Assembly (NCBI RefSeq): GCF_028330985.1
Contig: NZ_JAQMUE010000064.1
Coordinates: forward strand, 1 to 64,000
DNA length: 64,000 nt
Origin: Roseofilum reptotaenium CS-1145
Lineage (GTDB): Bacteria > Cyanobacteriota > Cyanobacteriia > Cyanobacteriales > Desertifilaceae
Direction: 5' to 3'
In this document: in pieces, positions 26,942 through 64,000 of the stretch
Numbering within the stretch: position 1 is the first letter of the stretch
Layout of the letters: every line of letters starts with the position of its first letter
Position numbers and translations under genes: made by a program
Notes under the pieces: generated by a model
Told to the model about the DNA's origin: nothing
What the model saw: the letters and a program-made list of their open reading frames with translations, nothing else
Databases searched by the model: none

Positions 26942-27053
26942 GGGGAAGTGGGGGAGGGAATGGGGAATGGGGCAGACGCGGGGACACTCCAGACACGGGG
27001 ATGGGATGTTGAACAACAGAAAGCCTATTGCCTATTGCCTGTTCCCCGAATTC

Positions 27054-28430: not shown

Positions 28431-28464
28431 GTTCGCCTCCCATCCTCTTCTGTACAACAAAGTG

Positions 28465-28512
28465 ATATTCAACTTGTTGCCTATTCTCTTTCAGGTTATA
28501 CTCAACTTATTG
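28465..28512. promoter_or_regulatory. Two direct repeats between adaptor and PadR genes (probable operator)
   Basis: ATATTCAACTTGTTG (28465-28479) and ATACTCAACTTATTG (28498-28512) differ at two positions and are 33 bases apart, three helical turns. Each contains a CAAC-TT-(G/A)TTG inverted half. They lie in the 102-base divergent gap and are a natural binding site for the adjacent PadR regulator. Confidence 0.6.
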
Positions 28513-42287: not shown

Positions 42288-42373
42288 TATCAAGGGATTT
42301 GCAGTAACTTCAGTGCCCTAAAGCTAATCCCAAATACTCCATGGTAGCCTTGAAATTAAGTAATCTCGAGTTT

Positions 42374-42583: not shown

Positions 42584-45500
42584 ATGAAATATTCCATTGA
42601 ACAGAAGAATGGTGCTGATATTGCAATTATTGGTATGGCTTGTCGGTTTCCTGGAGCTGATGACTACAACCAATATTGGGAAAATTTGGAAAAAGGAGTC
42701 AATAGTATAAGTGAAATTCCGCCCCAAAGGTGGGACGTAGAAAAGCATTATTCTCCTATTCCTAATCAACCGAATAAGACAATCAGTAAGTGGGGCGGAT
42801 TAGTTGAAGGGATAGATGAGTTTGATGCTGAGTTTTTTAGTATTTCTCCCCGAGAAGCAGGAAAAGTAGACCCACAACATAGAATTATGTTGGAATTGAC
42901 CTGGTCTTGTATCGAAGATGCAGGTTACTCCCTCTCCCAAGTTTCAGGAAAAGATATCGGTGTTTTTATCGGGGCGTGCAACTATGACTCTATTCTGTTG
43001 ATGAACCAAGATCAACAGAATGTAGAAGGTCATAGTGGAACAGGTACTTGGACTTGTATGATTCCCAACCGCATCTCTTCATTTTTTAACCTACATGGCC
43101 CAAGTATTCCGATAGATACAGCCTGTTCAAGCTCACTGGTTGCTCTTCATTACGCCCTGAAATCTCTCAAAGAATCAGAATGTGACATGGCATTGGTCGG
43201 TGGACTGAGCGTGTTATTTACTTCAACAACCTACATCCAGATGAGTCAACTGGGCATGTTATCGCCCACAGGACAATGTAGAACATTTAGTAGTGATGCG
43301 GATGGTTATGTTAGGGGAGAAGGTGCAGGAGTCGTTTTATTAAAACCTCTCACCAAAGCTATAGAAGATGGCGATCGCATTTATGGTGTCATTCAAGGAA
43401 GTGCGATTAATCACGGAGGACAAGCCAGAACGATCACATCCCCCAATGTCTATGCCCAAGCTCAAGTCATTCGTTCAGCCCATAGCAGAGCCAATATTTC
43501 TCCCAATACAGTATCTTACATAGAATCTCATGGAACAGGAACACCATTGGGAGATCCGATAGAAATTAATGCCCTGAAAAGAGCCTACAGACAACTTTAT
43601 CAACAGTATGGAGTTAAAAAAACGGAGAAACCCTACTGTGGGATAGGAGCAGTAAAAAGCAATATTGGGCATTTAGAAGGAGCAGCAGGAATTGCGGGAT
43701 TAATCAAAGTCCTATTAGCAATGAAGCACAAAAAACTGCCCCGCATAGTGAACTTCAAAGCCTTAAATCCACGCATTAACCTTAAAGATACTCCGTTCTA
43801 TATGCTAGAGGAAAATCAAGCGTGGAAGCGATTAAAAAATGAATCGGGAGAAGAGATCCCGATACGTGCTGGCTTAAGTTCTTTTGGGATCGGTGGCGTT
43901 AATGCTCATGTTGTATTGGAAGAATACCGAGAAGCAGTCAAAGTTGATAGCCATCTCGAACGTCCAAAACAGATTTTGTCCTTATCAGCACAGACAGAGC
44001 CAGCCCTGAGAGATCTGGCAACAAAATACCAAACTCATTTAGAATTAAAGCCTGAAGAATCACTACAAAGCATCTGCTTCAGTGCCAATACGGGGCGGAC
44101 ACATTTTGCAGAAAAATTAGCCATAGTAGCAGATTCAAACAGCGATTTACAGGAGAAAATAGCCGATTTCCTTCAGAATCATGAAAGAACTGGTGTGGTA
44201 AGAGGAAAGGCAGAAAGCCAGGAGAAAGAGATTGCTTTTCTGTTTACTGGGCAGGGGTCTCAATATGTGGATATGGGACGACAGTTATATGAGACTCAAC
44301 CCCTATTTCGGGAAAGTTTAGACCAATGCAATGAAATTCTAAAAGAATATCTAGAAATCCCTCTATTAGAAGTTATATATTCTCAGTCAAGCGCTTCTTT
44401 ATTAGATCAAACGGCTTATACGCAACCCGCTTTATTTTCTCTGGAATACGCCCTAGCTAAGTTATGGGAATCTTGGGGGATTAAACCCAATGCAGTCATG
44501 GGACATAGTGTGGGAGAATATGTGGCAGCAACAGTGGCAGGCGTTTTTAGTTTAGAAGAGGGTCTAAAATTAATTGCCATGCGGGGAAGGTTGATGCAAC
44601 AGTTACCCCGTGGTGGAGAGATGGTGGCAGTGATGGCATCAGAATCTCAAGTTAGGGAGGCGATCGCACAATCGAATTCCCAAGTAACAATAGCAGCCAT
44701 AAATGGGGCGGAAAGTATAGTGATTTCTGGGGAGAGTGGGGCGATCGCAACCCTCTCTAGTAAATTGAAATCACAAGGCGTTAAAACCAAGCCTTTACAA
44801 GTATCCCATGCTTTCCATTCCCCACTAATGGAGCCTATGTTGGCACAGTTTGAAGCAGTCGCTCAGGAAGTCACCTATAGTCAGCCTCGGATACCCGTCA
44901 TATCAAATGTCACTGGTCAAAAAGTCGATGCAGACATGGCAACTGCTCAATATTGGGTCAATCATGTCCGACAACCTGTGAAATTTGCCCAGAGTATAAA
45001 AACTCTCCATGAAGAAGGGTATAAAGTTTTCTTAGAAATTGGTCCCAAACCCATATTGTTAGGAATGGGAAGACAATGTTTACCAGAAGATGTGGGAGTA
45101 TGGTTGCCCTCGTTACGTCCTGGAGTAGAAGAATGGCAGCAAATGCTATTAAGCTTAGGACAATTGTATGTCAAAGGTTTCAAGGTGGATTGGTCTGGGT
45201 TTAATCAAGATTATACGAATCAGAAAGTTGCGTTGCCCACCTACCCATTCCAGCGAGAAAGATATTGGATAGATCCTTCTGAGAATCAAGATCGGAATAT
45301 GACTGATCAAAGTTCAAATTCACTTCTTGAACTCATTAGTCGAGGGGATTCAGAGGAATTAATTCAAGAGCTGAAGTTATCGGAAGAATTAACAGAAGAT
45401 GAAGAAAAAGTATTACCTAAGTTGTTAAGTATTTTGAAAGCTAAGTATCAAAAGCACCTGCAAGACCAGGGTGATGTAGTGGGTGACTTTTATGATGAGT

Positions 45501-48328
45501 TAGCTTCGTTGACAGATGAAGAAGCAATTTTGAACTACATTCCTTTGCCAGGGATTATCAAAGGATTTTCATGGGTTCTATTTTTTGCCAAACTAAAAAT
45601 ACAAGAAAGATATCACAAATTAGCATCAACAGCCCAGCAAGAGATTAGAAATATAGCTTGGCAGAAAGTCGATTTTTCTGCTTGTCGTAAAGTTCTAGAT
45701 ATTGGTTGTGGCCATGGAACTGATTTAATGACTTTAGGTCAGAAGTATAATCACTTAGAGCTTTGTGGCTATACAATATCAGAAGGGCAAGTAGAATTAG
45801 GAAACAAAAAAATCCGTGAATTAAACCTAGAAGAACGGGCAAGAATTGTTAATGGAGATAGTTCTCAGGATGAGTTTCCAGATCATTACGATTTGATATA
45901 TGGATTTGAAGTTATTTGTCACATCAAGAAGAAAAAGGAACTCTTTGTAAATATCAAGAATCACTTAAATGACAAGGGTCATTTCGTAATATCAGACTTT
46001 ATCTCTAATGCCTCATTTAACATTGATTATGATGCTCATTCATCTTATCTGATCGCTCAACAAGAGTGGCTGTATCTATTATCAGAAAGTCATATTAAAA
46101 TCATCCGTTATGTAGATATTAGTCATGAGATGGCTAATGGTTTAGACGATCCTAATTTCCCAGAGAATCTCGACTATGTATGTAGAAAAAGTAATTTAAA
46201 CGAGAATGCCAGAGTCGGGCTGCAATCTTATGACAACCTCTACAAGATGTTGCGTAAGGGGCTAGTCAGCTATGTAGTCATGACAGCCCAAAAGCAAGAT
46301 TCATTGTCAGTAGACGAAATTTACCAGTGGAACCAAGAAATTCTACAGAACCCCCTACGTTACTCTGATGTTTCATTACAACAATTTTTCTATGGCATAG
46401 AATGGCAAAAAGTAGGCGCTCGGCAACAGCAGAAAAAAAGACCGCAGCCAAGAACTTGGATCATCTTCAGCACTTCGGCTTCGCTCAGTGACCACGATAA
46501 AGAGGGTGTAGGGGAAAGACTGAAAAATAGCTTGGAAGAAAGAGGCGATCGCTGTTTGACGGTATTTATGGGGGAAACCTATAATCCAAAGGAAACCGGA
46601 AGTTGGGAGCTAAACCCATCTAATCCAGCCGATTTTGAGCGTTTTTGCCAAGAGGCAAAGGTTGGGGAAAGTCCGAGAATCATTCACTTGTGGAGTCTGG
46701 AAACTACACCTTCTCAACAACTCACGCAGTCAGCTTTAGAGTCAGGACAAAAGAATGGTTGTGGTAGCGTCTTGCATCTGGTGCAAGCTATGGAAAAACA
46801 CTGGAACTCATCCTCACCTCAACTGTGGTTAATGACTCAAGGTTCCCAGTCAATCCTGCCTTCCGAAGAAGTGGCAATAGCCCAAACCCCACTTTGGGGA
46901 CTCGGAAAAGTCTTATCTTTGGAACATCCTCAATTATGGGGAGGATTAATAGACTTAGATCGCCAATCTTCCACAAGTGAAGCAGAAATCCTACTACAAG
47001 TTCTAGAAGAGGAAGCAGAAGAAGATCAACTGGCGATTCGGAATGGAGAAATCTATGTAGCTCGTTTAGAAAGACAACTTTTAGCAGAGTCTAAACCCGT
47101 ATCCTTGAGTGAGGAAGGAAGTTATTTAATTACTGGGGGCACAGGCGCATTAGGATTGAGTGTAGGTCAATGGCTGGTAGAGAAGGGATGTCAACATCTA
47201 ATGTTAATCAGTCGCTCTCAGCCATCAGAGCAAGCACAATTGAGAATTGAGAGTTTACGCAAGCAAGGAGCAGAGGTAGTTGTAACTCAAGCCGATGTAT
47301 CTGTGCAAAAAGATATGGAGAAGGTATTCAAGCAAGTGAAAGAAACAATGCCACCTCTCAAAGGAGTAATTCATGCAGCAGGACTTGTAGGATTTAACCT
47401 GCTTAAGGAGATGGAAATTTCTCAACTTGAAGCCATATTGCGTCCCAAAGTAGTAGGAGGATGGGTACTACATCAATTAACTCAGAAGCTTGAGCTAGAC
47501 TTTTTTGTGAATTTCTCCTCCATTGCCTCAGTATGGGGTTCTAAAGGCCAAGCTCATTATGCAGCAGCTAACCATTTTCTGGATGGATTAACCGATTATC
47601 GCCAATCTCTGGGATTACCAACCTATAGCATCAATTGGGGGCCTTGGTCAGGAGGCGGAATGGCAGCAGGAGAGTCCATGGATTGGTTAAACCAAATGGG
47701 CGTAAAACCTCTAGAGCCAGAAAGAGCGATCGCCGCTTTGGAGAAAGTCTTAGCCAGCAATAGTCCTCAAACCGTAGTCGCAGATATCAATTGGGATTTA
47801 TTTAAGGATCTCTATGAACTCGGAGGTAAACGGTCATTTCTGTCCGAAATTTCCCTGGACTCAGAAGCAACAGATAGAGAACGCTCTTCGGAACAGAAAT
47901 CCGAAGTGTTACAACAACTTTATGAAGTTCCAGAAAGCGAACGGCTCGAAATACTGATCGAGCATCTGCAAACTGATGTCGCTAAGATTATCGGGTTATC
48001 GAAATCCAAACTTCCCGATCCCGAATTAGGATTTTTCCGAATGGGGATGGATTCCTTGATGGCGGTTGAGTTAAGAAATCGGTTGACGGCTACTTTTAGG
48101 TTCTCGATCAGCACAGCCACCTTGTTTGAAAAGTCTAATATTAAAGACTTAGCTGAATACTTGATTGAAGAAATTTTCTCTGAAGAGCCAGAGGAAGAAA
48201 TTGGGGTTGAAGAGATTGACAATATCGCTCCTCCCCAGAAGATAGAAACGGAGTTTGAAGGAGAAATTGATAGTGAGCTTGCTTCAGAGTTAGAAGAAAT
48301 TCAAGCTTTACTGAAGGAGGAAAGCTAA
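42584..48328 (+). CDS. Type I PKS, KS-AT-MT-KR-ACP
   Basis: First enzyme of the cluster, 1914 residues from ATG 42584; the frame is open back to GTG 42446 but that part has no PKS sequence. KS 10-440 has Cys in D-T-A-C-S-S-S (about 180), His in I-E-S-H-G-T-G and in N-I-G-H-L, so it can condense. AT 549-845 has G-H-S-V-G-E and H-A-F-H, which indicates malonyl-CoA. A methyltransferase of about 300 residues (D-I-G-C-G-H-G near 1036) follows, then KR (T-G-G-T-G-A-L-G near 1516, without the L-D-D motif) and ACP (M-D-S-L near 1821). DH and ER are absent, so it would leave a beta-hydroxyl. The acidic C-terminal tail (E-E-I-G-V-E-E) may be a docking element. The next PKS starts 1 base after the stop. 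Confidence 0.9.
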   Translation: MKYSIEQKNGADIAIIGMACRFPGADDYNQYWENLEKGVNSISEIPPQRWDVEKHYSPIPNQPNKTISKWGGLVEGIDEFDAEFFSISPREAGKVDPQHRIMLELTWSCIEDAGYSLSQVSGKDIGVFIGACNYDSILLMNQDQQNVEGHSGTGTWTCMIPNRISSFFNLHGPSIPIDTACSSSLVALHYALKSLKESECDMALVGGLSVLFTSTTYIQMSQLGMLSPTGQCRTFSSDADGYVRGEGAGVVLLKPLTKAIEDGDRIYGVIQGSAINHGGQARTITSPNVYAQAQVIRSAHSRANISPNTVSYIESHGTGTPLGDPIEINALKRAYRQLYQQYGVKKTEKPYCGIGAVKSNIGHLEGAAGIAGLIKVLLAMKHKKLPRIVNFKALNPRINLKDTPFYMLEENQAWKRLKNESGEEIPIRAGLSSFGIGGVNAHVVLEEYREAVKVDSHLERPKQILSLSAQTEPALRDLATKYQTHLELKPEESLQSICFSANTGRTHFAEKLAIVADSNSDLQEKIADFLQNHERTGVVRGKAESQEKEIAFLFTGQGSQYVDMGRQLYETQPLFRESLDQCNEILKEYLEIPLLEVIYSQSSASLLDQTAYTQPALFSLEYALAKLWESWGIKPNAVMGHSVGEYVAATVAGVFSLEEGLKLIAMRGRLMQQLPRGGEMVAVMASESQVREAIAQSNSQVTIAAINGAESIVISGESGAIATLSSKLKSQGVKTKPLQVSHAFHSPLMEPMLAQFEAVAQEVTYSQPRIPVISNVTGQKVDADMATAQYWVNHVRQPVKFAQSIKTLHEEGYKVFLEIGPKPILLGMGRQCLPEDVGVWLPSLRPGVEEWQQMLLSLGQLYVKGFKVDWSGFNQDYTNQKVALPTYPFQRERYWIDPSENQDRNMTDQSSNSLLELISRGDSEELIQELKLSEELTEDEEKVLPKLLSILKAKYQKHLQDQGDVVGDFYDELASLTDEEAILNYIPLPGIIKGFSWVLFFAKLKIQERYHKLASTAQQEIRNIAWQKVDFSACRKVLDIGCGHGTDLMTLGQKYNHLELCGYTISEGQVELGNKKIRELNLEERARIVNGDSSQDEFPDHYDLIYGFEVICHIKKKKELFVNIKNHLNDKGHFVISDFISNASFNIDYDAHSSYLIAQQEWLYLLSESHIKIIRYVDISHEMANGLDDPNFPENLDYVCRKSNLNENARVGLQSYDNLYKMLRKGLVSYVVMTAQKQDSLSVDEIYQWNQEILQNPLRYSDVSLQQFFYGIEWQKVGARQQQKKRPQPRTWIIFSTSASLSDHDKEGVGERLKNSLEERGDRCLTVFMGETYNPKETGSWELNPSNPADFERFCQEAKVGESPRIIHLWSLETTPSQQLTQSALESGQKNGCGSVLHLVQAMEKHWNSSSPQLWLMTQGSQSILPSEEVAIAQTPLWGLGKVLSLEHPQLWGGLIDLDRQSSTSEAEILLQVLEEEAEEDQLAIRNGEIYVARLERQLLAESKPVSLSEEGSYLITGGTGALGLSVGQWLVEKGCQHLMLISRSQPSEQAQLRIESLRKQGAEVVVTQADVSVQKDMEKVFKQVKETMPPLKGVIHAAGLVGFNLLKEMEISQLEAILRPKVVGGWVLHQLTQKLELDFFVNFSSIASVWGSKGQAHYAAANHFLDGLTDYRQSLGLPTYSINWGPWSGGGMAAGESMDWLNQMGVKPLEPERAIAALEKVLASNSPQTVVADINWDLFKDLYELGGKRSFLSEISLDSEATDRERSSEQKSEVLQQLYEVPESERLEILIEHLQTDVAKIIGLSKSKLPDPELGFFRMGMDSLMAVELRNRLTATFRFSISTATLFEKSNIKDLAEYLIEEIFSEEPEEEIGVEEIDNIAPPQKIETEFEGEIDSELASELEEIQALLKEES
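46471..46493 (+). repeat. CACTTCG...CTCAGTG palindromic repeat inside PKS1
   Basis: CACTTCGGCTTCGCTCAGTG plus ACC, with CACT/AGTG ends, is related to 49697-49719 and 54753-54775. Here it is translated in frame (S-A-S-L-S-D-H) in the region before the KR Rossmann domain. Confidence 0.75.
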
Positions 48329-48329
48329 A

Positions 48330-51300
48330 ATGAGCATATCCAAAGAAGTGCTTCAAACTTTGAAGGAAATGCGGGGTAAGCTTGAAGCGGTCAATAAAGC
48401 CAAAACCGAACCGATCGCCATTGTGGGAATGGCCTGCCGATTTCCTGGAGGAGCGACTGACCCCTCAAAATACTGGAGTTTGTTGCATGATGGCATAGAT
48501 GCCATTACCCCCGTTCCTGGCGATCGCTGGGATGTCAGTGCTTATTACGATCCCGATCCAGAAGTTCTAGGGAAAACTTACACCAAAGAAGGGGGATTTA
48601 TTGAGCAAGTTGACCAGTTCGATCCCCTATTTTTTGGCATCTCTCCCAGAGAAGCCGCGAGTTTAGACCCTCAGTACAGATTACTTTTAGAAGTCACTTG
48701 GGAAGCACTGGAAAATTCTGGGCAAACCTGGACAAACCTGAAGAATAGTCAGACCAGTGTCTTCATGGGGATCTCCACAGATGACTATTCTTCCGTCATT
48801 TTCAACGAAGCCAAAAGTTACCCGACTCTGGGAAGTAATAGAAGTATTGGAGTCGGTCGTATTTCTCATCTCTTGGGTTTGCAAGGGTCTAATATACAGG
48901 TCGATACCGCTTGTTCGAGTTCTTTAGTGGCGGCCCATTTAGCTTGTCAGAGTTTGCGATCGGGAGAATCCAACTTAGCCTTAGTGGGTGGAGTGAATTT
49001 AATCTTATCGCCCTTCAGCACGATTGGTCGTTGCCAACTGAGGGCACTAGCCCCTGATGGTCGTTGCAAGACGTTTGATGCGTCTGCAAATGGTTATGGT
49101 CAGGGAGAAGGATGTGGTGTTCTGGTTTTGAAACGCTTGTCTGATGCAGTGAGTGATGGGGATCTAATTTCAGCCGTGATTCGAGGTTCTGCGGTTAATC
49201 ATGATGGGCCCAGTAGTGGGATGACCGTTCCCAATAGAATGGCTCAGAAAAAGGTGATTCAACAAGCTTTGAGCAATGCCAAGTTAGAACCCGATCAAAT
49301 TAGCTATTTGGAAGCTCACGGTACAGGAACGTCTTTAGGAGACCCCATTGAGATAGAAGCTCTGGCAGAAGTATATGGCAAAAAACGTCCAGTAGATGAC
49401 CCTCTAATTGTGGGGTCAGTCAAGACGAATCTTGGGCATTTGGAAGCAGCAGCCGGTGTATCATCGTTGATGAAGGTGATTTTAGCCCTTAAACATCAGG
49501 AAATCCCCCCTCATTTGCATTTAAAAGAACCGAATCCCCATGTAGATTGGGATCGATTACCCATCAAAATTCCGACTTCATTAATGCCTTGGTCTGACGA
49601 GGGCAAACCCAGAATAGCAGGGGTGAGTTCCTTTGGGATGGGCGGGACTAATGCTCATATCGTTTTAGAAGAAGCACCAAGAGAAGGCAATAGGCACACT
49701 TCGACTGCGCTCAGTGACCAAACTTCGACTGCGCTCAGTGACCAAGGCAACAGTGAAGATCAGTTAGAACGTTCGCTGCACATCTTGACTCTCTCAGGTA
49801 AAACAGAAAAAGCTTTAGAAGATTTAGTTAGTCGTTATCAAAAGCATTTAGAAACGAATCCCGATGTGGCAATAGCAGAGGTTTGTTATACAGCTAATAC
49901 GGGAAGGCAACATTTTCAGCATCGACTAGCCGTGATTGCTTCTGACCCAAAGGAATTAGCTGAAAAGCTATTGGGTTGGAAAAGAGGACAGGAAGTCGTT
50001 GGCCTCTCTTGTGGACAATTCGATCGGGGTAGCGCAAGCTCTAAAATAGCTTTCCTATTCACCGGGCAAGCTTCCCAGTATGTGGATATGGGTAAGCAAT
50101 TGTATGAAAGTCAGCCAACTTTTCGCCAAGCTTTAGATCGATGCGACCAAATTTTACAGCCCTATCTAGACTATCCTTTATTAGAAGTTCTCTACCCGAA
50201 AGAAGAACAAAAGTCAAGCTCTAGTTTGTTAGACCAAACCGCTTATACCCAACCGGCTTTGTTTGCGGTTGAATACGCTTTGTTCAAGTTATGGGAATCT
50301 TGGGGAATTAAACCCAATGTAGTCATGGGTCACAGTGTCGGAGAATATGTAGCAGCAACTGTGGCAGGAGTGTTCAGTTTAGAAGAGGGTCTGAAGTTAG
50401 TTGCTGCGCGGGGACGGTTGATGCAACAGTTACCCCCTGGTGGAGAGATGGTGGCAGCGATCGCATCGGAATCGGTGGTGCAAGAGGAGATCGGCGACGA
50501 TGCTTCAAAAGTTACGATAGCAGCAATTAATGGGCCGGAAAGTACGGTGATTTCTGGGGAGAGTGGGGCGATCGCCAGCATTTGCACTAAATTAGAAGCA
50601 CAAGGCATTAAAACCAAACCTCTACAGGTATCCCATGCTTTTCATTCCCCACTAATGGAGCCAATGTTAGCCGAATTTGCAGCAGTCGCTCAGGAAGTGA
50701 CCTATCGTCAACCGAAAATAAAGTTCGTATCCAATGTAACTGGACAAAAAGCGGGAAATGAAGTCACTAAAGCAGAATATTGGGTCAATCATATCCGACA
50801 ACCCGTACAGTTTTATCAAAGTATAAAAACGTTGCACGAGCAGGGAAATGAACTCTTCTTGGAAATAGGGCCGAAACCCATTTTGCTCGGCATGGGGTCT
50901 CGATGTCTACCAGATGTAGGAGTATGGTTGCCATCCTTACGTCCTGGTGTAGCAGAATGGCAACCAATGCTATCAAGTTTAGGACAGTTGTATGTCAAAG
51001 GCATAACCGTGAATTGGTCAGGATTTGACCAAGATTATACTCGTCAGAAAGTAGCATTGCCAACCTATCCATTCCAAAGAGAATGCTGCTGGGTAGAAAT
51101 AAATAAACAGAAGGAACCTCAAACATCCGGGGGAATTACCGAGACTTCAATCGTAAAATTACTCAGTCAAGGAAAAACAGAGGCGATCGCTCAACAACTG
51201 GAAAGATCCGTAAACCTTTCACCCGAACAGCGTAAACTTTTACCCGAACTCTTAGAGGCATTAGCTAAACAACATCAGGAACAATTAGCCGCAGCAGCGA

Positions 51301-53321: not shown

Positions 53322-53352
53322 AATTAACCCTATAAGTTAAGGCTAAAATTTT

Positions 53353-56300
53353 ATGGAACCGACTACCAAAAAAGAGGATCTCTCATTATCCAAACAGATG
53401 TTTTTAGCTTTAAAACAAGCTGAAGCTAAATTGGAGAGGATGGAGCGCTCAAAAAGTGAGGCGATCGCAATTATCGGTATCGGTTGTCGGTTTCCTGGAA
53501 ATGCCAACACACCAGAGCTATTCTGGGACTTGTTATCAAAGGGTCAAGACGCGGTTAGAGAGATTCCCTTAGAACGTTGGGATATAGAGTCTTACTATGA
53601 CCCCAACCCTGAGACTCCAGGGAAAATGTATATCCGGCACGCAGCATTAGTGGAGCAGGTCGATCAGTTCGATCCGCAATTTTTTGGTATCTCTGGCAAA
53701 GAAGCACACAGCCTTGACCCACAGCAACGTTTTATTTTAGAAGTAACTTGGGAAGCTCTAGAAAGAGCGGGTATTAATCCCCAGGACTTAGAAAACACTC
53801 AGACTGGAGTGTTTATGGGGATCGGTCAAAATGATTATGCGAACTTGGGGTTGAGCCAAGTTGAAAAGATTAGCCCTTACGATGCAACCGGAAATGGATT
53901 TTGTTTTGCAGCCGGTCGGTTATCTTACTTTTTAGGGTTGCAAGGCCCCTCCATGGCAATAGATACAGCGTGTTCATCCTCTTTGGTCGCTATCCATGAA
54001 GCTTGTCAGAGTCTGCGTCAGGGTGAGTCTAATCTAGCTTTAGCTGGAGGGGTTCAACTGATTCTCTCTCCTCAAGTGACCACTGCACTCTCAAAATTAA
54101 AGGCTCTATCACCCGATGGCAAGTGCAAAACGTTTGATGCTGCTGCTGATGGTTATGGTCGGGGAGAGGGATGTGGCATCATGGTGCTGAAGCGTTTGTC
54201 GGATGCACTCAAGGATGGGGACAATATCCAGGCAGTCATTCGGGGTTCAGCCGTTAATCATGATGGGCCGAGTAGCGGACTGACTGTACCGAATAAACTC
54301 GCTCAGGAAAAACTGATTCAGCAAGCTCTGAAAGCAGCTAAATTAGAACCGGATCGCGTGAGCTATGTGGAAGCACATGGTACAGGAACGTCCCTGGGAG
54401 ACCCGATGGAAGTGAGAGCATTAAGTAGCGTGTTTGGGCCGGGACGAGATCGCCAAAACCCATTGCACATTGCTTCAGTTAAAACCAATATCGGTCATCT
54501 AGAAGCTGCTGCTGGAATTGCTGGTGCGATCAAGGTCGTTTTGCAACTACAACATCAAAAAATTACCCCTAATCTGCATTTTACTAATCCTAGTCCCTAT
54601 ATTGATTGGGAGAATATACCTTTAAAAGTTCCAACTCAACTGACCCCTTGGCTCTCATCAGGGGAGAAAAGAGTAGCAGGCGTAAGTTCTTTTGCGATTA
54701 GTGGTACCAATGCTCATATTATTTTAGAAGAAGCACCCAAAGAAGACAGGCACACTTCGACTCCGCTCAGTGACCAAGGCAAGAGTGAAGATGACTTGAA
54801 AGGTTCGGTTCATCTCTTAACTCTCTCAGCTAAAACAGAACAAGCGTTAGAAGATGTAGTCAGTCGTTATCACAACTATTTAGAAAATCATCCAGAGTTA
54901 CCCCTAGCAGATATTTGTTATACAGCTAATGCAGGCAGAGCGCATTTTAATCATCGACTCGGTGTTATTGCTTCTGAGCCAAAGGAATTAACAGAAAAAC
55001 TGGTGGACTGGAAAACGAAGAAAGAAGTCGTAGGGGTATATTCTGGACAACTCGATGGAAGTAGCCAAAGTCCAAAAATAGCGTTCCTCTTCACAGGTCA
55101 AGGTTCCCAATATGTGAATATGGGAAGGAAACTGTATGAAACTCAGCCAAGTTTCCGTCAAGCTTTAGACCGATGCGACCAAATTTTACACGCCTATCTA
55201 GAAGTCCCTCTATTAGAAATTCTCTACCCTAAAGATGCACAAAACTCAACGGTATTAGACCAAACCGCTTATACTCAACCGGCTTTGTTTTCTATAGAAT
55301 ACGCCCTAGCCAAGTTATGGGAATCTTGGGGAATTAAACCCAATGCGCTCATGGGTCATAGTGTGGGCGAATATGTGGCAGCAACTGTAGCAGGAGTATT
55401 CAGTTTAGAAGAGGGTCTCAAATTAATTGCTATGCGGGGAAGGTTGATGCAACAGTTACCTCCGGGTGGTGAAATGGTGTCTTTGTTAGCATCAGAATCT
55501 CAAGTCAGAGAAGCTATAGGTGAGGATGTTTCCAAAGTAACAATTGCAGCTATAAATGGGCCGGAGAGTGTCGTAATTTCCGGGGAGAGTGGGGCGATCG
55601 CCACCCTTTGCAGTAAATTAGCCTCACAAGGTATTAAAACCAAGCCGTTACAAGTATCCCATGCTTTCCATTCCCCATTGATGGAGCCAATGTTAGCAGA
55701 GTTTGAAGCAGTCGCTCAGGAAGTCACCTATAGTCAGCCTCGGATACCCATCATCTCCAATGTCACCGGTCAAAAAGTAGGTTCAGACATGGCTACAGCT
55801 CAATATTGGGTCAATCATGTCCGACAACCCGTAAAATTTGCCCAGAGTATGAACACTCTAAAGGAGCAAGGGTATGAATTATTCCTAGAAATTGGTCCTA
55901 AACCCATATTACTGGGAATGGGTCGTCAATGTTTACCAGAAGATGTAGGAGTCTGGTTACCTTCTCTACGTCCTGGAGTGGATGAATGGCAACAGCTCCT
56001 CTCAAGTTTAGGACAGTTATATGTACGGGGGACTCAAGTAGACTGGTCAGGGTTTAACCCAGATTATCGCTACCAGAAAGTAATCTTGCCCACTTATCCA
56101 TTTCAGCGGGAAAGGTATTGGGTAGAAACCGGAAGTTCTCAAGCTATCTCTACACCTAAACTTCATCCTCTAATTAATCGGAAATTTCAATCTCCGTTAT
56201 CAAAAGATATCTTTTTTGAGTCCGAATTTAGCACCTATGCTCTACCCTTTTTAGCCGATCACCGAATCTATGAAAAAGTAGTTGTGCCTGGTGCCAACCA

Positions 56301-59300
56301 CATTTCCCTATTGTTAGGAAGTGCCTCTCTAACCTTTGCTGCAACTAGATGTCAACTGGAGGATATTCTGTTCCCCCAAGCCTTAGCGATTCCCGAAGAA
56401 GGAATCCGAACGGTTCAGGTCGCCTTAACTCCACAGGAGAGCGACTATTCATTTCAAGTGATTAGTTTAGATAGCTCTAAGGAGAGTAATTCTTGGGCTG
56501 TTCATGCTACCGGGAAAATCCATCCGACCCATATTGAGTCGCAGCAGTCTATAGAAACCATCGCCGAAATTCAAGCTCGTTGTCCTCAAAACATTGAAAG
56601 CACAGAAATTTACCAGAATCTATGGGATAGACAGGTTCAATTAAGGGAGCGTTTTAGATGGATCGATCGAGTCTGGTTAGGAGAAGGGGAAATCCTGTGC
56701 CAAATGAAAGTACCAGAGACGATCTTAGATGCAAAAGATTATCAAATACATCCCGCATTAATTGACTCCTGCTTTCAGTCAGTGGCTGCACTTAACCTCA
56801 GTCTTTCTGAGGATCAAACTGAAACGTTTGTTCCGTTCAATATCAAGAGATTTACGTTTTATCAGCGCCCTGAGAACGGTTCGCTTTGGTGTTATACCCG
56901 TGGATTGAAAGAAGGAGAATCAGAGGATAAACTGCTCAAAGCCGAAATACAATTATTTGACCAAACGGGGAAATTAGTAGCTGAAGTCAATGGTTTTGAG
57001 GGTAGGAAAGCAACACCGGAAACCTTACTCAAGAGTCTAGATTCCGATTTAAGTGATTGGTATTATGAAATTAGCTGGGAAGCTCAACCTTTAACCGAAA
57101 CTGCACAATCTAGTGAAAATGCTGGTCAATGGTTAGTCTTTGCATTGACCGATCAATTTACAGAGTCTATAGGGCAGTATTTACAAGCAAGAGGACAGAA
57201 CTATATCGGGATATCCCCAGGCTCAGATTATCAGCAGCTAGATGCTCAACATTATCAAATTAATCCCACTGTTGCCGAACACTTCCGCAAACTGCTGCAA
57301 GAGAATTCTGACATTAAAGGTATTTTGCACTTATGGGGTATCAATGAAACTGAGGATTTACAAATAGCTCAAGAACTCGGTTGTGCAACAGCTCTACATT
57401 TAGTGCAAGCTTTAACGGAAGCTGGACTCAGTCATGCCCTACCGATGTGGTTAGTGACTCAAGGGACTCAGAAGATATGGGACGAAGCAGAAGTAGTCCA
57501 ACCCCAACAAGGAAGTTTATGGGGACTAGGGCGTGTAATTCGTCTAGAACACCCAGAATTAAAATGTTGCCGAATAGATTTAGACCCCAAATCGAGTCTT
57601 TCTGAAATGCTCCCTAGTTTAGTCGATGAACTCTTGGCGAAGAGTAATGAAGACCAGATTGCAATTCGTCAGGGAATTCGTTATGTAGCTCGCTTAATCC
57701 GACAACAAAAACCGCAAATTAGCTCAGAAGAAAACTTAGGATTAGAACGTCAACCCCTAGAGTTGAAGTTGTCTGAATATGGACTGATAGATAACCTCAA
57801 CTGGCAGGTCATGCAGCGCCGTTCTCCACAAGCAAATGAAGTAGAGATTGAAGTCAAAGCCGCAGGTTTAAACTTCCGAGATGTACTCAATTCTTTGGGT
57901 TTACTGAAAGACTATTATGCTCAGGTATTGGGGATTACTGACGTAGCTCAACTTAACTTTGGCTTAGAATGTGTCGGTGTTATTGCCTCTGTGGGAGACA
58001 ATGTGTCTCAGTGGCAGGTGGGAGATGAAGTCATGGCGATCGTTCACAATGGCTTTAGTAGTTTTGTTACTACTCCTGCTGAGTTAGTTATGGCTAAACC
58101 GAAACATCTGAGCTTTACGGAAGCAGCCACCTTACCCTTAACTTTTGCTACAGCTTACTATGGATTACAATACTTAGCTAAAATTCAGCCCGGCGATCGC
58201 GTATTAATTCATGCTGCGGCAGGAGGGGTAGGGCAAGCGGCAGTTCAAATTGCACTCCAACTAGGAGCGGAAGTCTTTGCTACAGCGAGTCCTCCCAAGT
58301 GGGAGTTTCTCAAGTCTATGGGGGTCAAACACATCATGAATTCCCGGACTTTAGAGTTTGCCGATGAAATAATGAGTCTTACTGGGGGGAAAGGTGTAGA
58401 TATCGTCTTAAATAGTCTGAATGGGGACTTCATTGATCGGAGTTTTGCGGTTTTAGGGAACAAAGGACGATTTGTAGAAATTGGCAAAATCGGAATTTGG
58501 GACAAACAAAAGGTAATGGAGACGCGGCCAGATGCTGAATACTTGCCTTTTGATATTGGAGTGACGATCCAACAACAACCCGGTTTAATTGCGGAATTTT
58601 CAGAAGCATTAAACCAACAATGTTCATCAGGAACACTGAAGCCATTGTCTTATAAAGTATTCCCCAGTACACAAGTGCAAGCGGCTTTCCGATATATGCA
58701 ACAGGGTAAGCATATCGGGAAAGTGGTTGTTTCTCTGCCAGAAACTGGAGAAGACAAAACATCGATCAAACCAGACGCAAGTTATCTAATTACAGGAGGT
58801 TTAGGGGCTTTAGGTTTGGAAGTCGCCCAATGGATGGTATCCGAAGGAGCCAAGCATATCGTATTAACGGGGCGAAGAAGTCCGAATGAAACGGCACAAA
58901 ACGCGATCGAGCAGTTAGAAGCAGCAGGAGCATCGGTCAGTGTTTTATTAGGGGATATTTCTACTCAAGAGTCTGTAATGAACATCTTAGAAGAAATATC
59001 GACTTCGCTACCTCCGCTCAAAGGAGTGATTCATGCTGCTGGGGTGTTGGATGATGGGGTATTACAAAAGATGAGCTGGGAGAAATTTATGAACGTGATG
59101 GCTCCCAAGATGTCAGGAACCTGGTATTTACATGAACTGACTCAGAATTTACCTTTAGATTTCTTTGTGTGTTTCTCGTCAATGGCTTCGATGTTGGGCA
59201 ATTTTGGCCAAGGCAATTATGCTGCGGCGAATGGTTTTATGGATGCAATCGCTCACTATCGCCAAGGTCAGGGTTTACCCGGATTGAGTATTAACTGGGG

Positions 59301-59916
59301 AGCCTGGGCAACAGCAGGAATGGCGGCTCGTTTGGCCAGGGAACATCAAAATCGAATGCACAGTAGCGGAGTAGTGGCAATTAAACCGGAATTAGGAATG
59401 CAAGCATTGGGTTCATTGTTGTCAGGATCTCAAAGCCAAGTCGGGGTGTTTCCGGTGAATTGGCAGGAGTTTTTTAGACAGATGCCAGGATTGGCAAAAC
59501 TCCCATTTTTAGAAGCGTTTACCACAAAATCAGGAGAACCGGATCAGAACTCTCGGATTTTAGAACAGCTCGATCTTGCTTCCGATCGTGAACAAGAAAC
59601 AGTATTGACCGCTTATCTCCAAACCAAAATTGCTCATATTATGGGGATGACGGTTTCTCAAATAGAGTTACAAAAATCTCTAACTATGATGGGACTTGAT
59701 TCATTGATGGCTGTGGAATTGCGAAATCAGGTTCAAACTGAGCTTTTAGTCGATATTCCAGCGACCCGATTTATGGAAGGAATTACGATTGAGCTTCTAG
59801 CAACTGAGATTCAGCAACAACGGATTCAAACAGATAACCAGCCAAGGATTGAATCGAGTAAGGAAGAGCAACCGGATGAAAATAAAGAGAGTAATTGGAT
59901 AGAGGTGGAACTATGA
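53353..59916 (+). CDS. Type I PKS, KS-AT-DH-ER-KR-ACP (fully reducing)
   Basis: The 2187-residue third module starts 31 bases after PKS2. The N-terminal helix (about 5-33) looks like a docking coil. KS about 35-465 has D-T-A-C-S-S-S, A-H-G-T-G and N-I-G-H-L. AT about 576-870 has G-H-S-V-G-E and H-A-F-H (malonyl). DH (about 945-1235) has H-R-I-Y-E-K-V-V-V-P, with Glu in place of the motif Gly, and D-S-C-F-Q. ER (about 1490-1790) has the NADPH loop A-A-A-G-G-V-G. KR has T-G-G-L-G-A-L-G near 1814 and L-D-D. ACP L-D-S-L is near 2114. It would add two fully reduced carbons. Its stop overlaps the NRPS start by ATGA. Confidence 0.93.
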   Translation: MEPTTKKEDLSLSKQMFLALKQAEAKLERMERSKSEAIAIIGIGCRFPGNANTPELFWDLLSKGQDAVREIPLERWDIESYYDPNPETPGKMYIRHAALVEQVDQFDPQFFGISGKEAHSLDPQQRFILEVTWEALERAGINPQDLENTQTGVFMGIGQNDYANLGLSQVEKISPYDATGNGFCFAAGRLSYFLGLQGPSMAIDTACSSSLVAIHEACQSLRQGESNLALAGGVQLILSPQVTTALSKLKALSPDGKCKTFDAAADGYGRGEGCGIMVLKRLSDALKDGDNIQAVIRGSAVNHDGPSSGLTVPNKLAQEKLIQQALKAAKLEPDRVSYVEAHGTGTSLGDPMEVRALSSVFGPGRDRQNPLHIASVKTNIGHLEAAAGIAGAIKVVLQLQHQKITPNLHFTNPSPYIDWENIPLKVPTQLTPWLSSGEKRVAGVSSFAISGTNAHIILEEAPKEDRHTSTPLSDQGKSEDDLKGSVHLLTLSAKTEQALEDVVSRYHNYLENHPELPLADICYTANAGRAHFNHRLGVIASEPKELTEKLVDWKTKKEVVGVYSGQLDGSSQSPKIAFLFTGQGSQYVNMGRKLYETQPSFRQALDRCDQILHAYLEVPLLEILYPKDAQNSTVLDQTAYTQPALFSIEYALAKLWESWGIKPNALMGHSVGEYVAATVAGVFSLEEGLKLIAMRGRLMQQLPPGGEMVSLLASESQVREAIGEDVSKVTIAAINGPESVVISGESGAIATLCSKLASQGIKTKPLQVSHAFHSPLMEPMLAEFEAVAQEVTYSQPRIPIISNVTGQKVGSDMATAQYWVNHVRQPVKFAQSMNTLKEQGYELFLEIGPKPILLGMGRQCLPEDVGVWLPSLRPGVDEWQQLLSSLGQLYVRGTQVDWSGFNPDYRYQKVILPTYPFQRERYWVETGSSQAISTPKLHPLINRKFQSPLSKDIFFESEFSTYALPFLADHRIYEKVVVPGANHISLLLGSASLTFAATRCQLEDILFPQALAIPEEGIRTVQVALTPQESDYSFQVISLDSSKESNSWAVHATGKIHPTHIESQQSIETIAEIQARCPQNIESTEIYQNLWDRQVQLRERFRWIDRVWLGEGEILCQMKVPETILDAKDYQIHPALIDSCFQSVAALNLSLSEDQTETFVPFNIKRFTFYQRPENGSLWCYTRGLKEGESEDKLLKAEIQLFDQTGKLVAEVNGFEGRKATPETLLKSLDSDLSDWYYEISWEAQPLTETAQSSENAGQWLVFALTDQFTESIGQYLQARGQNYIGISPGSDYQQLDAQHYQINPTVAEHFRKLLQENSDIKGILHLWGINETEDLQIAQELGCATALHLVQALTEAGLSHALPMWLVTQGTQKIWDEAEVVQPQQGSLWGLGRVIRLEHPELKCCRIDLDPKSSLSEMLPSLVDELLAKSNEDQIAIRQGIRYVARLIRQQKPQISSEENLGLERQPLELKLSEYGLIDNLNWQVMQRRSPQANEVEIEVKAAGLNFRDVLNSLGLLKDYYAQVLGITDVAQLNFGLECVGVIASVGDNVSQWQVGDEVMAIVHNGFSSFVTTPAELVMAKPKHLSFTEAATLPLTFATAYYGLQYLAKIQPGDRVLIHAAAGGVGQAAVQIALQLGAEVFATASPPKWEFLKSMGVKHIMNSRTLEFADEIMSLTGGKGVDIVLNSLNGDFIDRSFAVLGNKGRFVEIGKIGIWDKQKVMETRPDAEYLPFDIGVTIQQQPGLIAEFSEALNQQCSSGTLKPLSYKVFPSTQVQAAFRYMQQGKHIGKVVVSLPETGEDKTSIKPDASYLITGGLGALGLEVAQWMVSEGAKHIVLTGRRSPNETAQNAIEQLEAAGASVSVLLGDISTQESVMNILEEISTSLPPLKGVIHAAGVLDDGVLQKMSWEKFMNVMAPKMSGTWYLHELTQNLPLDFFVCFSSMASMLGNFGQGNYAAANGFMDAIAHYRQGQGLPGLSINWGAWATAGMAARLAREHQNRMHSSGVVAIKPELGMQALGSLLSGSQSQVGVFPVNWQEFFRQMPGLAKLPFLEAFTTKSGEPDQNSRILEQLDLASDREQETVLTAYLQTKIAHIMGMTVSQIELQKSLTMMGLDSLMAVELRNQVQTELLVDIPATRFMEGITIELLATEIQQQRIQTDNQPRIESSKEEQPDENKESNWIEVEL
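54753..54775 (+). repeat. CACTTCG palindromic repeat inside PKS3
   Basis: A single copy starting CACTTCGACTCCGCTCAG is read in frame as T-S-T-P-L-S-D-Q in the KS-AT linker, the same site as the tandem copies in PKS2. It differs from them by one base in the core. Confidence 0.85.
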
Positions 59917-62900
59917 ACTTAGTGGAGTTTTTACAAGATCTATCTCTCAAAGGGGTCAAGTTATGGTGTGCTGGTGACAAACTGCGTACTGGAGGTTCCC
60001 AAGAGGTATTAACCCCTGATGTTATTGCTCAACTGAAGCAGTACAAAACTCAAATTGTGCAGTTATTGCGGGAACAGCCCAATTTATTGCAGGTCTATCC
60101 TCTATCTTACGGTCAAAGAGGTCTCAGATTTTTATGGGAACTTGCCCCACAAAGCTATACTTACAATTTGTCATTTGCGGTTCGTATTTATTCTCCGGTA
60201 GATCTGGCTATTTTGCAGCAAACTTTTGAGGGATTAAGACACCGCCATCCCATGCTGCAAAGTACGTTCCCCAAATTGGCTCAAGACATGGTTCGACAAG
60301 TCCATCACAATCAATCCTTAGATTTCTTGGAGATTGATGCTTCGAGTTGGAATGAGGATGAGTTGTATGCAAACGTTCTTCAAACTCATCGTCAACCCTT
60401 CGATCTGGAGACCAAACCCGTCATGCGAATCAGGTGGTTTAGCCACTCGCCACAAGACTCTATCCTGTTGTTGACCATACATCATATTGCTTGGGATGGT
60501 TGGTCAATGAGTTCTATTGTCAAAGAGCTACCAGAACTGTACGAAGCTCAACAGACAGGTGTTGAAATATCTCTGCCTTCAATAGATAACTCTTACCAAG
60601 ATTATGTGAGTTGGCAAAGGGATTTATTAGCTGGAACTGAAGGAGAGCGCCTCTGGAGTTATTGGCAACAAAAACTGGGAGGGGATTTGCCGGTCTTGAA
60701 TTTACTGACCGATAAACCGCGACCTCCCATACAAACCTATAACGGTGCTGCTTATCCTTTCAATTTGCCTCAAGAACTGACTGAAAACCTGAAAGCACTC
60801 GCTCAGGAGGAAGGGGCGACTCTTTATATGGTTCTCTTGGCCGCTTTTCAAATTCTTCTATCTCGTTACACCAGTCAAGAAGATATTTTGGTCGGCTCTC
60901 CTACTTTTGGTCGGTCTAAACCTGAGTTTGTACCGATTGTTGGGTACTTTGTCGATCAAGTTGTGATGAGGGGAAGTCTTTCCGGAAATCCTTGTTTCAA
61001 AGACTTCCTGTCTCAGGTGCGCCAAACGGTTATTGAGGCCTTAGCTCATCAAGATTATCCTTTTTCTTTGTTAGTCCAGCGATTAAATGTAGAGCAAGAT
61101 TCGAGTCGCTCCCCTCTTTTTCAAGCTTACTTTATGCTGCAAAATTTTCAAGGCGCTCAAACGGTACAAAAGCTGTTATCTAGCCGAAAGAAAACTGTAG
61201 TCAATTGGGGAAAATGGAACGTGGAGCCGTTTGCATTGGCTCAGTATGAAAGTCTGTTTGATTTGACTTTAGAAATGATTGAGGAAGATTCATCTATGAT
61301 GGGATTCTTCAAATACAATACAGATCTATTTGATGAGCAAACGATTGTGAGGATGGCTAGCCATTATCAGGCGTTGTTAGCTGGAATTGTTCATCATCCC
61401 GAGCAAAATGTGGGGCAACTGCCTTTGTTGCCGGAGGCACAACAGCACCTGTTACTTGAGCAATGGAATAACACGGCTACGGAATATCCACAGGATCGCT
61501 GTATTCATCAGTTGTTTGAAGAGCAGGTTAAGCGCACTCCGGATGCTGTGGCAGTGATTTTTGGCGATCGCCGGTTGACTTATCAAGATTTGAATGAACG
61601 CGCTAATCAGTTAGCCCATTATCTGCAAAGTTTGGACGTAAGAGCAGAAGTCCTAGTCGGTTTATGTATCGATCGCTCTATAGAAATGTTAGTGGGACTT
61701 TTGGGGATACTGAAGGCTGGAGGCGCTTATGTCCCAATCGATCCGAGTTATCCGCAGCAACGGTTAGCTTATATGTTAGAAGATTCTGCTGTGCCGGTTT
61801 TGCTAACCACTGAGTCATTGTTAGAGCTTATACCAGAACATCAGGCTAAAATGGTCTGTTTGGATAGGGATTGGCCGGCGATCGCATCATATCCTGAGCA
61901 AAATCCCACCAGCGCAGTGGCTCCAGAGAATCGAGCTTATGTTATTTATACTTCTGGCTCGACAGGTAAACCTAAAGGAGTTCAAATCTGTCATCAGTCT
62001 CTCGTCAATTTCCTCGTATCCATGAACCATTATCTGGAATTGACAAGAGTCGATACGTTTAACGCCATTACAACCATCTCATTTGATATTGCAGCATTAG
62101 AACTTTATCTGCCCCTCATCGTAGGCGCATCAGTCGTATTAGTTCCCCGTGAAATTGCCATAGATGGCAACAGGCTCTTACCCCAGTTATTAGAATCTGG
62201 AGCCACAGTGATGCAGGCAACCCCTGCTACTTGGAAAATGCTATTAATGGCAGGTTTAGCCAATCACAAGCTGGACGCGAAATTATTGTCTGGAGGTGAA
62301 GCTTTACCTGCCCAATTGGCGGATCAACTCCGAGAGATAGCTAAGGAAGTCTGGAATCTTTATGGTCCTACGGAAACGACAATCTGGTCAACCATTTATA
62401 AGGTAGGCGATCGGCTAAAGCCAACAGAAGAGAGTTCGGTGATTACACCCATTGGTTGTCCCATTGGTAATACCGAAATTTATATCCTAGACAGTTATCA
62501 CCAACCTACCCCTATTGGTGTACCGGGGGAACTCCATATCGGTGGAGTCGGTTTGGCTCGTGGCTATCTTAACCGCCCCGAATTAACTCAAGAGAAATTT
62601 ATTCCTAACCCTTTTGAGGGTTTGCACATTCACAATCAAAGCTCAAGATTGTATAAAACCGGCGATTTAGCTCGATATTTACCGGATGGAACTATTGATT
62701 ATCTAGGTCGAATAGATAACCAAGTCAAGATTCGAGGGTTCCGTATTGAACTCGGAGAAATTGAATCAACCTTGACTCAGCACCCAGAGGTGCAAGAAGC
62801 AGTCGTCATTACCGATCGCGATCGCTTGAGTGACAAGCCCTTGATCGCCTATATTGTTCCCAACTTCCAAGGTCAAGACCCAAGTTCTCGTGACTCTATC

Positions 62901-64000
62901 AATCAAGCTCACCGCGATCGCATATTACAATGGCAACAACTCAGGAATAATATCTATCAACAGACCACCATTGATGGAGCCTCAAATTTCAACCCTCTGA
63001 TTTGGAGAGATAGTTATACTGGTCAGCCCATCCCTGAACAAGAGATGTCTCAATGGTTAAATTATACCATTGAGCGCATCCTCGATTTCAAACCCGATCG
63101 CATCCTAGAGATCGGTTGTGGTACGGGTCTGTTGCTCTTTAAGATTGCTCCCCACACTTCCAACTATTGTGCTACCGATATTTCCGACAAAGCGATTTCT
63201 TATATTGAACAGCACTTGGAAACCCTAGAGGGCAATGGGTCTCATGTTAAACTCTACAACCAACCTGCCCATGATTTTCAATCCGTGGAGCAAGAATCCT
63301 TCGATGCTGTAATCCTTAACTCAGTTATCCAATATTTTCCCAGTATTGAATACTTAGTAGAAGTATTAGAAAATGCAATCAAATTAGTCGAACCTGGGGG
63401 TCAAATCTTTATCGGAGATGTGCGAAGTCTACGACTACTAGAAACCTTCCATACTGATATATTATTGAGCCAAGCTGCTGACGATCTAACCCTAGAAGAT
63501 TTATGGGATCGAGTACAAAAAAAATTAAAAGAAGAAGAGGAATTGGTAATCGATCCAACCTTTTTCCAAGCGCTACAGCAGCATTTACCCCAGATTAGTC
63601 AGGTAGAGATTCAACTCAAGCGCGGTCGTACCCATAATGAAATGACCACGTTTCGCTATGATGTGATTCTTCATATAGAAAAGGACGTTTTGTCCTCCAG
63701 TAGCGGCCCTCAATTGCTCAATTGGCAACAGGAGCAACTAACCTTACCCTCTATCGAGCACATTTTGGCACAAAAGCAGCCAGAGATGCTGATCGTCAAA
63801 AATGTTCCCAATGCACGCCTCCAATCTCCAATCAAGCTCAAGCAACTCTTGACCAGAAAAGATCAATTGATTAAGGTCGGAGAACTCCGAAAAACCTTAG
63901 AAAAAAACACTCTAGAAACAGGAATAGATCCTGAAGATTTTTGGAGCTTGAGTGATGAGTTAGATTATCGCATCTACATTACGTGGTCAGATCTTGAGAC
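59913..64000 (+). CDS. Nonribosomal peptide synthetase, TubC docking-C-A-NMT (partial at window end)
   Basis: Starts at ATG 59913 overlapping the PKS3 stop (ATGA) and stays open to the right edge (1362 residues seen). Residues 1-55 are a TubC-type N-terminal docking domain (L-K-G-V-K-L-W-C-A-G-D-K-L-R). C domain about 65-500 has H-H-I-A-W-D-G near 190. A domain about 530-1000 has Y-T-S-G-S-T-G-K-P-K-G near 680. Pocket residues read D, I, L, Q, L, G, L, I, W, which I recall as the glycine code. An N-methyltransferase (L-E-I-G-C-G-T-G near 1063, followed by L-K-R-G-R-x-H-N-E-M) is inserted after A8. The predicted unit is N-methylglycine. The carrier domain and any later modules lie outside the window. 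Confidence 0.92.
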   Translation, partial: MNLVEFLQDLSLKGVKLWCAGDKLRTGGSQEVLTPDVIAQLKQYKTQIVQLLREQPNLLQVYPLSYGQRGLRFLWELAPQSYTYNLSFAVRIYSPVDLAILQQTFEGLRHRHPMLQSTFPKLAQDMVRQVHHNQSLDFLEIDASSWNEDELYANVLQTHRQPFDLETKPVMRIRWFSHSPQDSILLLTIHHIAWDGWSMSSIVKELPELYEAQQTGVEISLPSIDNSYQDYVSWQRDLLAGTEGERLWSYWQQKLGGDLPVLNLLTDKPRPPIQTYNGAAYPFNLPQELTENLKALAQEEGATLYMVLLAAFQILLSRYTSQEDILVGSPTFGRSKPEFVPIVGYFVDQVVMRGSLSGNPCFKDFLSQVRQTVIEALAHQDYPFSLLVQRLNVEQDSSRSPLFQAYFMLQNFQGAQTVQKLLSSRKKTVVNWGKWNVEPFALAQYESLFDLTLEMIEEDSSMMGFFKYNTDLFDEQTIVRMASHYQALLAGIVHHPEQNVGQLPLLPEAQQHLLLEQWNNTATEYPQDRCIHQLFEEQVKRTPDAVAVIFGDRRLTYQDLNERANQLAHYLQSLDVRAEVLVGLCIDRSIEMLVGLLGILKAGGAYVPIDPSYPQQRLAYMLEDSAVPVLLTTESLLELIPEHQAKMVCLDRDWPAIASYPEQNPTSAVAPENRAYVIYTSGSTGKPKGVQICHQSLVNFLVSMNHYLELTRVDTFNAITTISFDIAALELYLPLIVGASVVLVPREIAIDGNRLLPQLLESGATVMQATPATWKMLLMAGLANHKLDAKLLSGGEALPAQLADQLREIAKEVWNLYGPTETTIWSTIYKVGDRLKPTEESSVITPIGCPIGNTEIYILDSYHQPTPIGVPGELHIGGVGLARGYLNRPELTQEKFIPNPFEGLHIHNQSSRLYKTGDLARYLPDGTIDYLGRIDNQVKIRGFRIELGEIESTLTQHPEVQEAVVITDRDRLSDKPLIAYIVPNFQGQDPSSRDSINQAHRDRILQWQQLRNNIYQQTTIDGASNFNPLIWRDSYTGQPIPEQEMSQWLNYTIERILDFKPDRILEIGCGTGLLLFKIAPHTSNYCATDISDKAISYIEQHLETLEGNGSHVKLYNQPAHDFQSVEQESFDAVILNSVIQYFPSIEYLVEVLENAIKLVEPGGQIFIGDVRSLRLLETFHTDILLSQAADDLTLEDLWDRVQKKLKEEEELVIDPTFFQALQQHLPQISQVEIQLKRGRTHNEMTTFRYDVILHIEKDVLSSSSGPQLLNWQQEQLTLPSIEHILAQKQPEMLIVKNVPNARLQSPIKLKQLLTRKDQLIKVGELRKTLEKNTLETGIDPEDFWSLSDELDYRIYITWSDLE

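Follow-up and report, generated by a model that had tools for sequence, protein, structure and literature searches.

What does the hybrid polyketide synthase-nonribosomal peptide synthetase (PKS-NRPS) line at the right end of a 64,000-nucleotide stretch of Roseofilum reptotaenium CS-1145 make? This stretch (the window) comprises positions 1-64000 of contig C64 (NZ_JAQMUE010000064.1), which is 132,636 bp long in a genome of 5.67 Mb. The original prediction, made from the letters alone, described four co-directional genes with gaps of 1, 31 and -4 bases that encode KS-AT-MT-KR-ACP, KS-AT-KR-ACP, KS-AT-DH-ER-KR-ACP and TubC-C-A-NMT, and read from them a methylated, partly reduced chain joined to N-methylglycine that matched no named compound. 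The plus-strand coordinates, the spacing and the domain strings were all confirmed (Pfam E-values down to 1e-104), and so was the expectation that the cluster continues past the right edge, since extension to the whole contig added three more genes. The complete line, which ends at contig position 85,067, is not a four-gene system but consists of seven plus-strand genes (ORF1-4, with ORF4 crossing the window edge and its PCP falling just outside, and ORF5-7 further right), which make up seven modules with a reductase at the end. Our data suggest that this is very probably a type A malyngamide-like assembly line, in a methoxy variant whose ORF5 and ORF6 arose by block replacement.

Seven collinear orthologues of ORF1-7 are present on a contig of Okeania hirsuta PAB10Feb10-1, with whole-length identities of 81% (ORF1), 79% (ORF2), 84% (ORF3), 81% (ORF4), 71% (ORF6) and 78% (ORF7), while ORF5 resembles its counterpart in the KS-AT half only (79%). 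The collinear Okeania genes form the malyngamide cluster of that species, so a named product family does exist for the locus, and all four genes known from the window match this cluster closely (79-84%). The likeness to the Okeania type A cluster (malyngamide I/malyngamide C acetate) covers the order and domains of ORF1-4 and ORF7, the KS-AT of ORF5, the AT-DH-cMT-KR0-ACP part of ORF6 and the terminal reductase, at 71-84% identity, whereas the beta-branching/halogenase block of Okeania is missing from the C64 line, which has an oMT-KR-ACP and an ORF2-type KS instead. The Okeania cluster also contains a LipM-like gene, a KS decarboxylase-like protein, HMGS, a PhyH-ACP protein, ECH and two P450s. 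Malyngamide biosynthesis in Okeania hirsuta was reportedly described by Moss et al. in 2018 ('Ketoreductase domain dysfunction expands chemodiversity', ACS Chem Biol 13:3385); in that account, a LipM homologue reportedly loads octanoate, and the ketone left in place by an inactive penultimate KR allows the head ring to close (Knoevenagel). The sequence features that we checked agree with this pathway, except for the location of LipM. Several traits of type A malyngamide clusters are present, namely the three-module lyngbic-acid front (oMT-KR; KR; DH-ER-KR), a glycine NRPS module with an N-methyltransferase (NMT) after that front as in the malyngamide I line, a penultimate module with a C-methyltransferase (C-MT) and an inactive KR (ORF6), and a terminal reductase release domain (ORF7). 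The beta-branching/halogenation cassette of the chlorinated members is absent from the cluster; this cassette is not universal in the compound family, malyngamides U and W being without it.

The first unit had been predicted to be methylated and to carry a hydroxyl, a reading that has to be revised. The best PDB matches of the ORF1 MT are the O-methyltransferases (O-MTs) StiE (210 bits) and StiD (178 bits), and the ORF5 MT likewise matches these two (~210 and ~180 bits), with E about 1e-61 and the similarity spanning the full domain in an AT-MT-KR setting in both genes. Since the ORF1 MT groups with the StiE/StiD beta-hydroxyl O-MTs, its unit should bear a methoxy group instead of a C-methyl and a hydroxyl, and C-methylation by ORF1 was rejected on the same grounds, as the domain does not match CurJ-type C-MTs. 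StiE and StiD belong to the stigmatellin PKS, a different host pathway with different partner domains; judged from their sequences, the MTs of ORF1 and ORF5 are predicted to act as O-MTs on beta-hydroxyacyl-ACP. ORF1 is predicted to carry out the first extension in the lyngbic-acid part (beta-methoxy, C7-OMe), ORF2 the second (hydroxyl, precursor of the 4E alkene) and ORF3 the third (CH2-CH2), which would complete this part. Three genomes of Okeania and two of Roseofilum contain loci for proteins closely related to the ORF1 MT, and among 386 genomes of the phylum relatives at such identity occur only in Roseofilum. A second large PKS/NRPS line in the same genome (contig C111, about 8000-57000) carries two more StiE-like oMT-KR modules, whose MTs are 56% and 40% identical to that of ORF1; this is possibly the looekeyolide line. 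A looekeyolide line had also been considered for the C64 locus, given the genus, and was rejected because, gene by gene, it is the malyngamide cluster that matches.

The N-methylglycine unit of the original prediction is supported. The adenylation domain of ORF4 gave, by eye, the pocket code DILQLGLIWK, which by the signature tables would specify glycine, and all of these residues but one recur in the Okeania homologue; the by-eye code and the orthology to the Okeania NRPS together support the putative glycine assignment. A literature search for an N-methylglycine PKS found nothing.

A genuine departure from Okeania lies in ORF5 and ORF6. Between the ATs of these two genes Okeania has tandem ACPs, beta-branching enzymes, ECH and a KS, whereas the C64 line has an oMT-KR-ACP, docking parts and a different KS. 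Contig positions 67319-71901 match a stretch of ORF1-ORF2 (45127-49678) at 78.5% nucleotide identity over 4,620 bp, and the flanks match Okeania, at 83% on the left (contig 64734-67244) and, to Okeania ORF6, at 82% on the right (contig 71825 onward). The end points of the swap are the end of the AT and a position just past the KS, and amino-acid windows give the same exchange. In the KS tree, the ORF5 KS clusters with the Okeania beta-branching KS (100/97) and the ORF6 KS with the ORF2-KS clade (100/99). Forcing the ORF6 KS to its positional orthologues (p-AU 1e-84) or the ORF5 KS to the ORF1 KS (p-AU 1.5e-6) was rejected, with p-values that are optimistic because the KS groups were named after the tree was seen; the likelihood gaps in the two constrained tests (382 and 447) are large despite this post hoc grouping. 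The DH and KR of ORF6 remain with Okeania ORF6. The ORF5 oMT falls close to those of ORF1 in the two genera, probably as their sister (modest support), so the copy probably arose before the present ORF1/ORF2 lineages separated and would not be a recent tandem duplication. Wherever the gene was checked (Okeania, R. halophilum), the remaining KSs in the clade of the ORF5 KS belong to beta-branching modules, which suggests the replacement of beta-branching by the oMT as the simpler direction. We consider it likely that, in a malyngamide I-like line, a copy of the upstream ORF1-ORF2 unit (oMT-KR-ACP and the following KS, an 'updated' module that includes the docking parts) took the place of the beta-branching/chlorination block. 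This would turn the vinyl chloride into a 2'-methoxy group and would give U/W-type heads their first genetic basis.

The same arrangement is found in a second Roseofilum species (G394) over three contigs (C153, C190, C79) at 88-95% identity, where the ORF5 KS-AT-oMT junction lies in one contig and the junction from the ORF5 end through the ORF6 KS to the ORF6 AT also in one. An assembly error as the source of the ORF5/ORF6 chimera was rejected, because the C64 line lies on a single contig, the copies differ by 21% and G394 has the same junctions. In G394, the contig ends fall at corresponding places in the two oMT-KR copies (near C64 46213/68405 and 47766/69945); none of the G394 contigs compared holds the 1.5 kb that separates these ends, which only hints at two nearly identical KR copies, as after gene conversion. 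No report of the swap was found in the papers that were read.

Five of the six KRs of the line keep the nucleotide motif and the catalytic Ser/Tyr/Asn, the exception being ORF6, in which Tyr is replaced by His and Asn by Ser and the glycines of GxGxxG are lost (the sequence reads TEGMGDLG and GNHAVAS). The KR of the Okeania equivalent has a broken nucleotide motif (TEGISSLG) and has kept its Tyr, while the equivalents in R. halophilum and R. acuticapitatum are just 1,712 aa long, that of R. halophilum being without cMT or KR in Pfam. A ketone is therefore expected at this position in all of them. The ORF6 DH (contig C64 about 73310-74180) keeps its His/Asp and is found in all species compared; with the KR dead, it should have no substrate. 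The MT of ORF6 matches the C-MT of CurJ (658 bits), so that the line as a whole, with StiE-like domains in ORF1 and ORF5 and the NMT of ORF4, should place two methyls on oxygen, one on carbon and one on nitrogen. The C-terminus of ORF7 is an NAD_binding_4 reductase (Pfam), as in its Okeania counterpart.

From these features we infer the starter, the ring closure and the product as follows. An octanoyl-type starter, for which the cluster holds no loading module, would be extended by ORF1 to a beta-hydroxyl that is O-methylated, by ORF2 to a hydroxyl that is dehydrated later, and by ORF3 with full reduction, to render 7-methoxytetradec-4-enoyl (lyngbic acid). ORF4 would condense this chain with glycine and N-methylate it, and ORF5 would extend the glycine carboxyl, with reduction and O-methylation, to N-CH2-CH(OMe)-. 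ORF6 would then add a C2 unit and C-methylate it, the ketone being kept since its KR is dead, and ORF7 would add a saturated C2 unit, after which the terminal reductase would free an aldehyde. Ring closure on this aldehyde, by the carbon that lies between C2' and the kept ketone, would give a methylated cyclohexenone. In the numbering of PMC5742827, C1 would be the NCH2, C2 would come from the glycine carboxyl, C4/C5 would derive from ORF5, C6 (methyl) and C7 from ORF6 and C8/C9 from ORF7, with the six-membered ring formed by C4 closing on C9. By our own count, the predicted core before tailoring is C26H45NO4 ([M+H]+ 436.342). The swapped block leads us to expect a 2'-methoxy head, with the methoxy group at C2 where the chlorinated family has =CHCl. 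The name N-demethyl-isomalyngamide I indicates that malyngamide I bears an N-methyl, and methionine is the expected source of the ring methyl of malyngamide I (PMC5742827). Syntheses of malyngamides U and W place a CH(OMe) between the N-CH2 and the ring, and W carries lyngbic acid (PMC5803146). The predicted N-CH2-CH(OMe)-cyclohexanone/enone head without vinyl chloride is like that of U/W, and W shares the lyngbic acid as well, although the ring of U/W has an extra oxygen. The line predicts an N-methyl relative of malyngamides U/W.

Several points weigh against a malyngamide-type product. The U/W syntheses use amides without an N-methyl (PMC5803146), whereas the C64 line has an NMT. No starter-loading gene stands beside the cluster; a LipM-like gene on contig C19 of the same genome is 57% identical to the LipM-like gene next to the cluster in Okeania, and might be no more than a housekeeping gene. 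Nor is a P450 adjacent to the cluster, unlike in Okeania. In each of the two Okeania genomes searched, the sole LipM-like gene is close to the cluster; in Roseofilum it is on another contig, and it may have a double role, in lipoate and in malyngamide metabolism. A larger PF03099 match, on contig C84, was rejected as LipM, as it reads like a BirA biotin ligase.

The orthology of the ORF5 KS-AT to the Okeania beta-branching module, and the antiSMASH labels malyngamide C acetate/I that Roseofilum clusters have received (PMC9967302), would suit a chlorinated malyngamide of the classical kind (C acetate or I) whose beta-branching enzymes act in trans from elsewhere in the genome. We regard this as very improbable, because in place of the tandem ACPs of Okeania ORF5 contains one ACP together with an oMT-KR, an active ORF5 KR would remove the ketone that HMGS needs, and the interval from argD to gltD holds no HMGS, ECH or halogenase, HMGS having been sought in this interval and not in the remainder of the genome. 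The duplication of docking parts and KS raises another concern, since the ORF5 C-terminus and the ORF6 N-terminus copy the ORF1 C-terminus and the ORF2 N-terminus: ORF1 might pass its chain to ORF6, or ORF5 to ORF2, leaving the line non-functional or with mixed or truncated products. This seems improbable to us, as the docking tails have diverged, the catalytic motifs are intact everywhere except in the ORF6 KR, and the line has been kept in two species. The domain strings alone would permit a reading close to the original prediction, a C-methylated, hydroxylated polyketide joined to N-methylglycine and unrelated to known families, but the seven-gene collinearity with the malyngamide cluster and the match of the ORF1 MT to StiE/StiD and not to CurJ-type C-MTs make this the least credible reading of all, and the methoxy variant of a type A malyngamide line remains our preferred one.

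Loci of this kind are already known in the genus, where nine Roseofilum metagenome-assembled genomes carry malyngamide-annotated clusters, often several each (PMC9967302). The malyngamide-like clusters of R. halophilum and R. acuticapitatum share with C64 the argD border, ORF1-3 at 84-88% (ORF1 86% and, over its full length, ORF3 84% identical to R. halophilum, ORF2 88% to R. acuticapitatum) and ORF7 at 80%, and differ in having another NRPS module, a retained HMGS/ECH cassette and a shortened ORF6 equivalent. Judging by these comparisons, the head half of the line is undergoing reshuffling within one genus. The aminotransferase gene argD is the conserved left border in three Roseofilum species and is outside the pathway itself; a divergent gltD/gltB pair (names by eye from the sequence) lies to the right of ORF7. 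With argD and gltD on either side, the line is bounded and complete except for the loading module. The ATG at 42584 is in frame in ORF1 and consistent with the starts of the Roseofilum homologues. Elsewhere in the window, an AcrB-type RND pump and an HlyD-type adaptor are encoded as a pair ~14 kb upstream of the cluster (23852-28472, minus strand), and that they export the product is only a guess; positions 8981-11857 (plus strand) encode an LRR-TPR-CHAT protease-like protein of the kind found in cyanobacterial caspase-like systems.

Table 1. Genes and domains of the assembly line and its left border; positions refer to contig C64, of which the window is 1-64000.
Feature	Position	Strand	Basis or remark
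Acetylornithine-type aminotransferase gene (argD)	40989-42293	-	93-95% identity beside homologous clusters
ORF1 KS-AT-oMT-KR-ACP	42584-48328 (open frame 42446/42584-48328)	+	Pfam; orthology
O-methyltransferase domain of ORF1, StiE type	45503-46450	+	Pfam; PDB matches; tree
KR core of ORF1	47117-47650	+	catalytic Ser/Tyr/Asn and GGTGALG intact, no LDD
Source-like copy: post-AT linker-oMT-KR-ACP-docking-KS of next module	45127-49678	+	nucleotide comparison
ORF2 KS-AT-KR-ACP	48330-53321	+	Pfam; orthology
ORF3 KS-AT-DH-ER-KR-ACP	53353-59916	+	Pfam; orthology
ORF4 TubC-C-A-NMT-PCP	59913-64667 (window holds up to 64000)	+	Pfam; orthology
Adenylation domain of ORF4	61515-62570	+	Pfam; pocket code by eye
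N-methyltransferase core (Methyltransf_12), embedded in A domain of ORF4	63105-63404	+	Pfam
ORF5 KS-AT-oMT-KR-ACP	64734-70508	+	Pfam
ORF6 KS-AT-DH-cMT-KR0-ACP	70514-77308	+	Pfam
ORF7 KS-AT-DH-ER-KR-ACP-TD	77358-85067	+	Pfam

No gene cluster for malyngamides U/W was found in the literature searched, and the C64 line is a first candidate cluster for the 2'-methoxy malyngamides. Lyngbic acid, the predicted acyl part of its product, has been reported as abundant in black band disease, a Roseofilum-dominated coral disease, and as an inhibitor of Vibrio quorum sensing (review PMC11596561). Engineers of PKSs have argued for an 'updated module boundary' with the cut placed after the KS, on the ground that a KS co-migrates with the processing domains that precede it (PMC10402262), and the swap, which ends after the AT and after the next KS, matches this boundary. 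The locus would thus be a natural case of the updated-module cut in a pathway of known product type, and one that spans a protein boundary; the source and recipient units of the swap can be compared directly, and the change from a chlorine branch to a methoxyl is simple to predict by mass.

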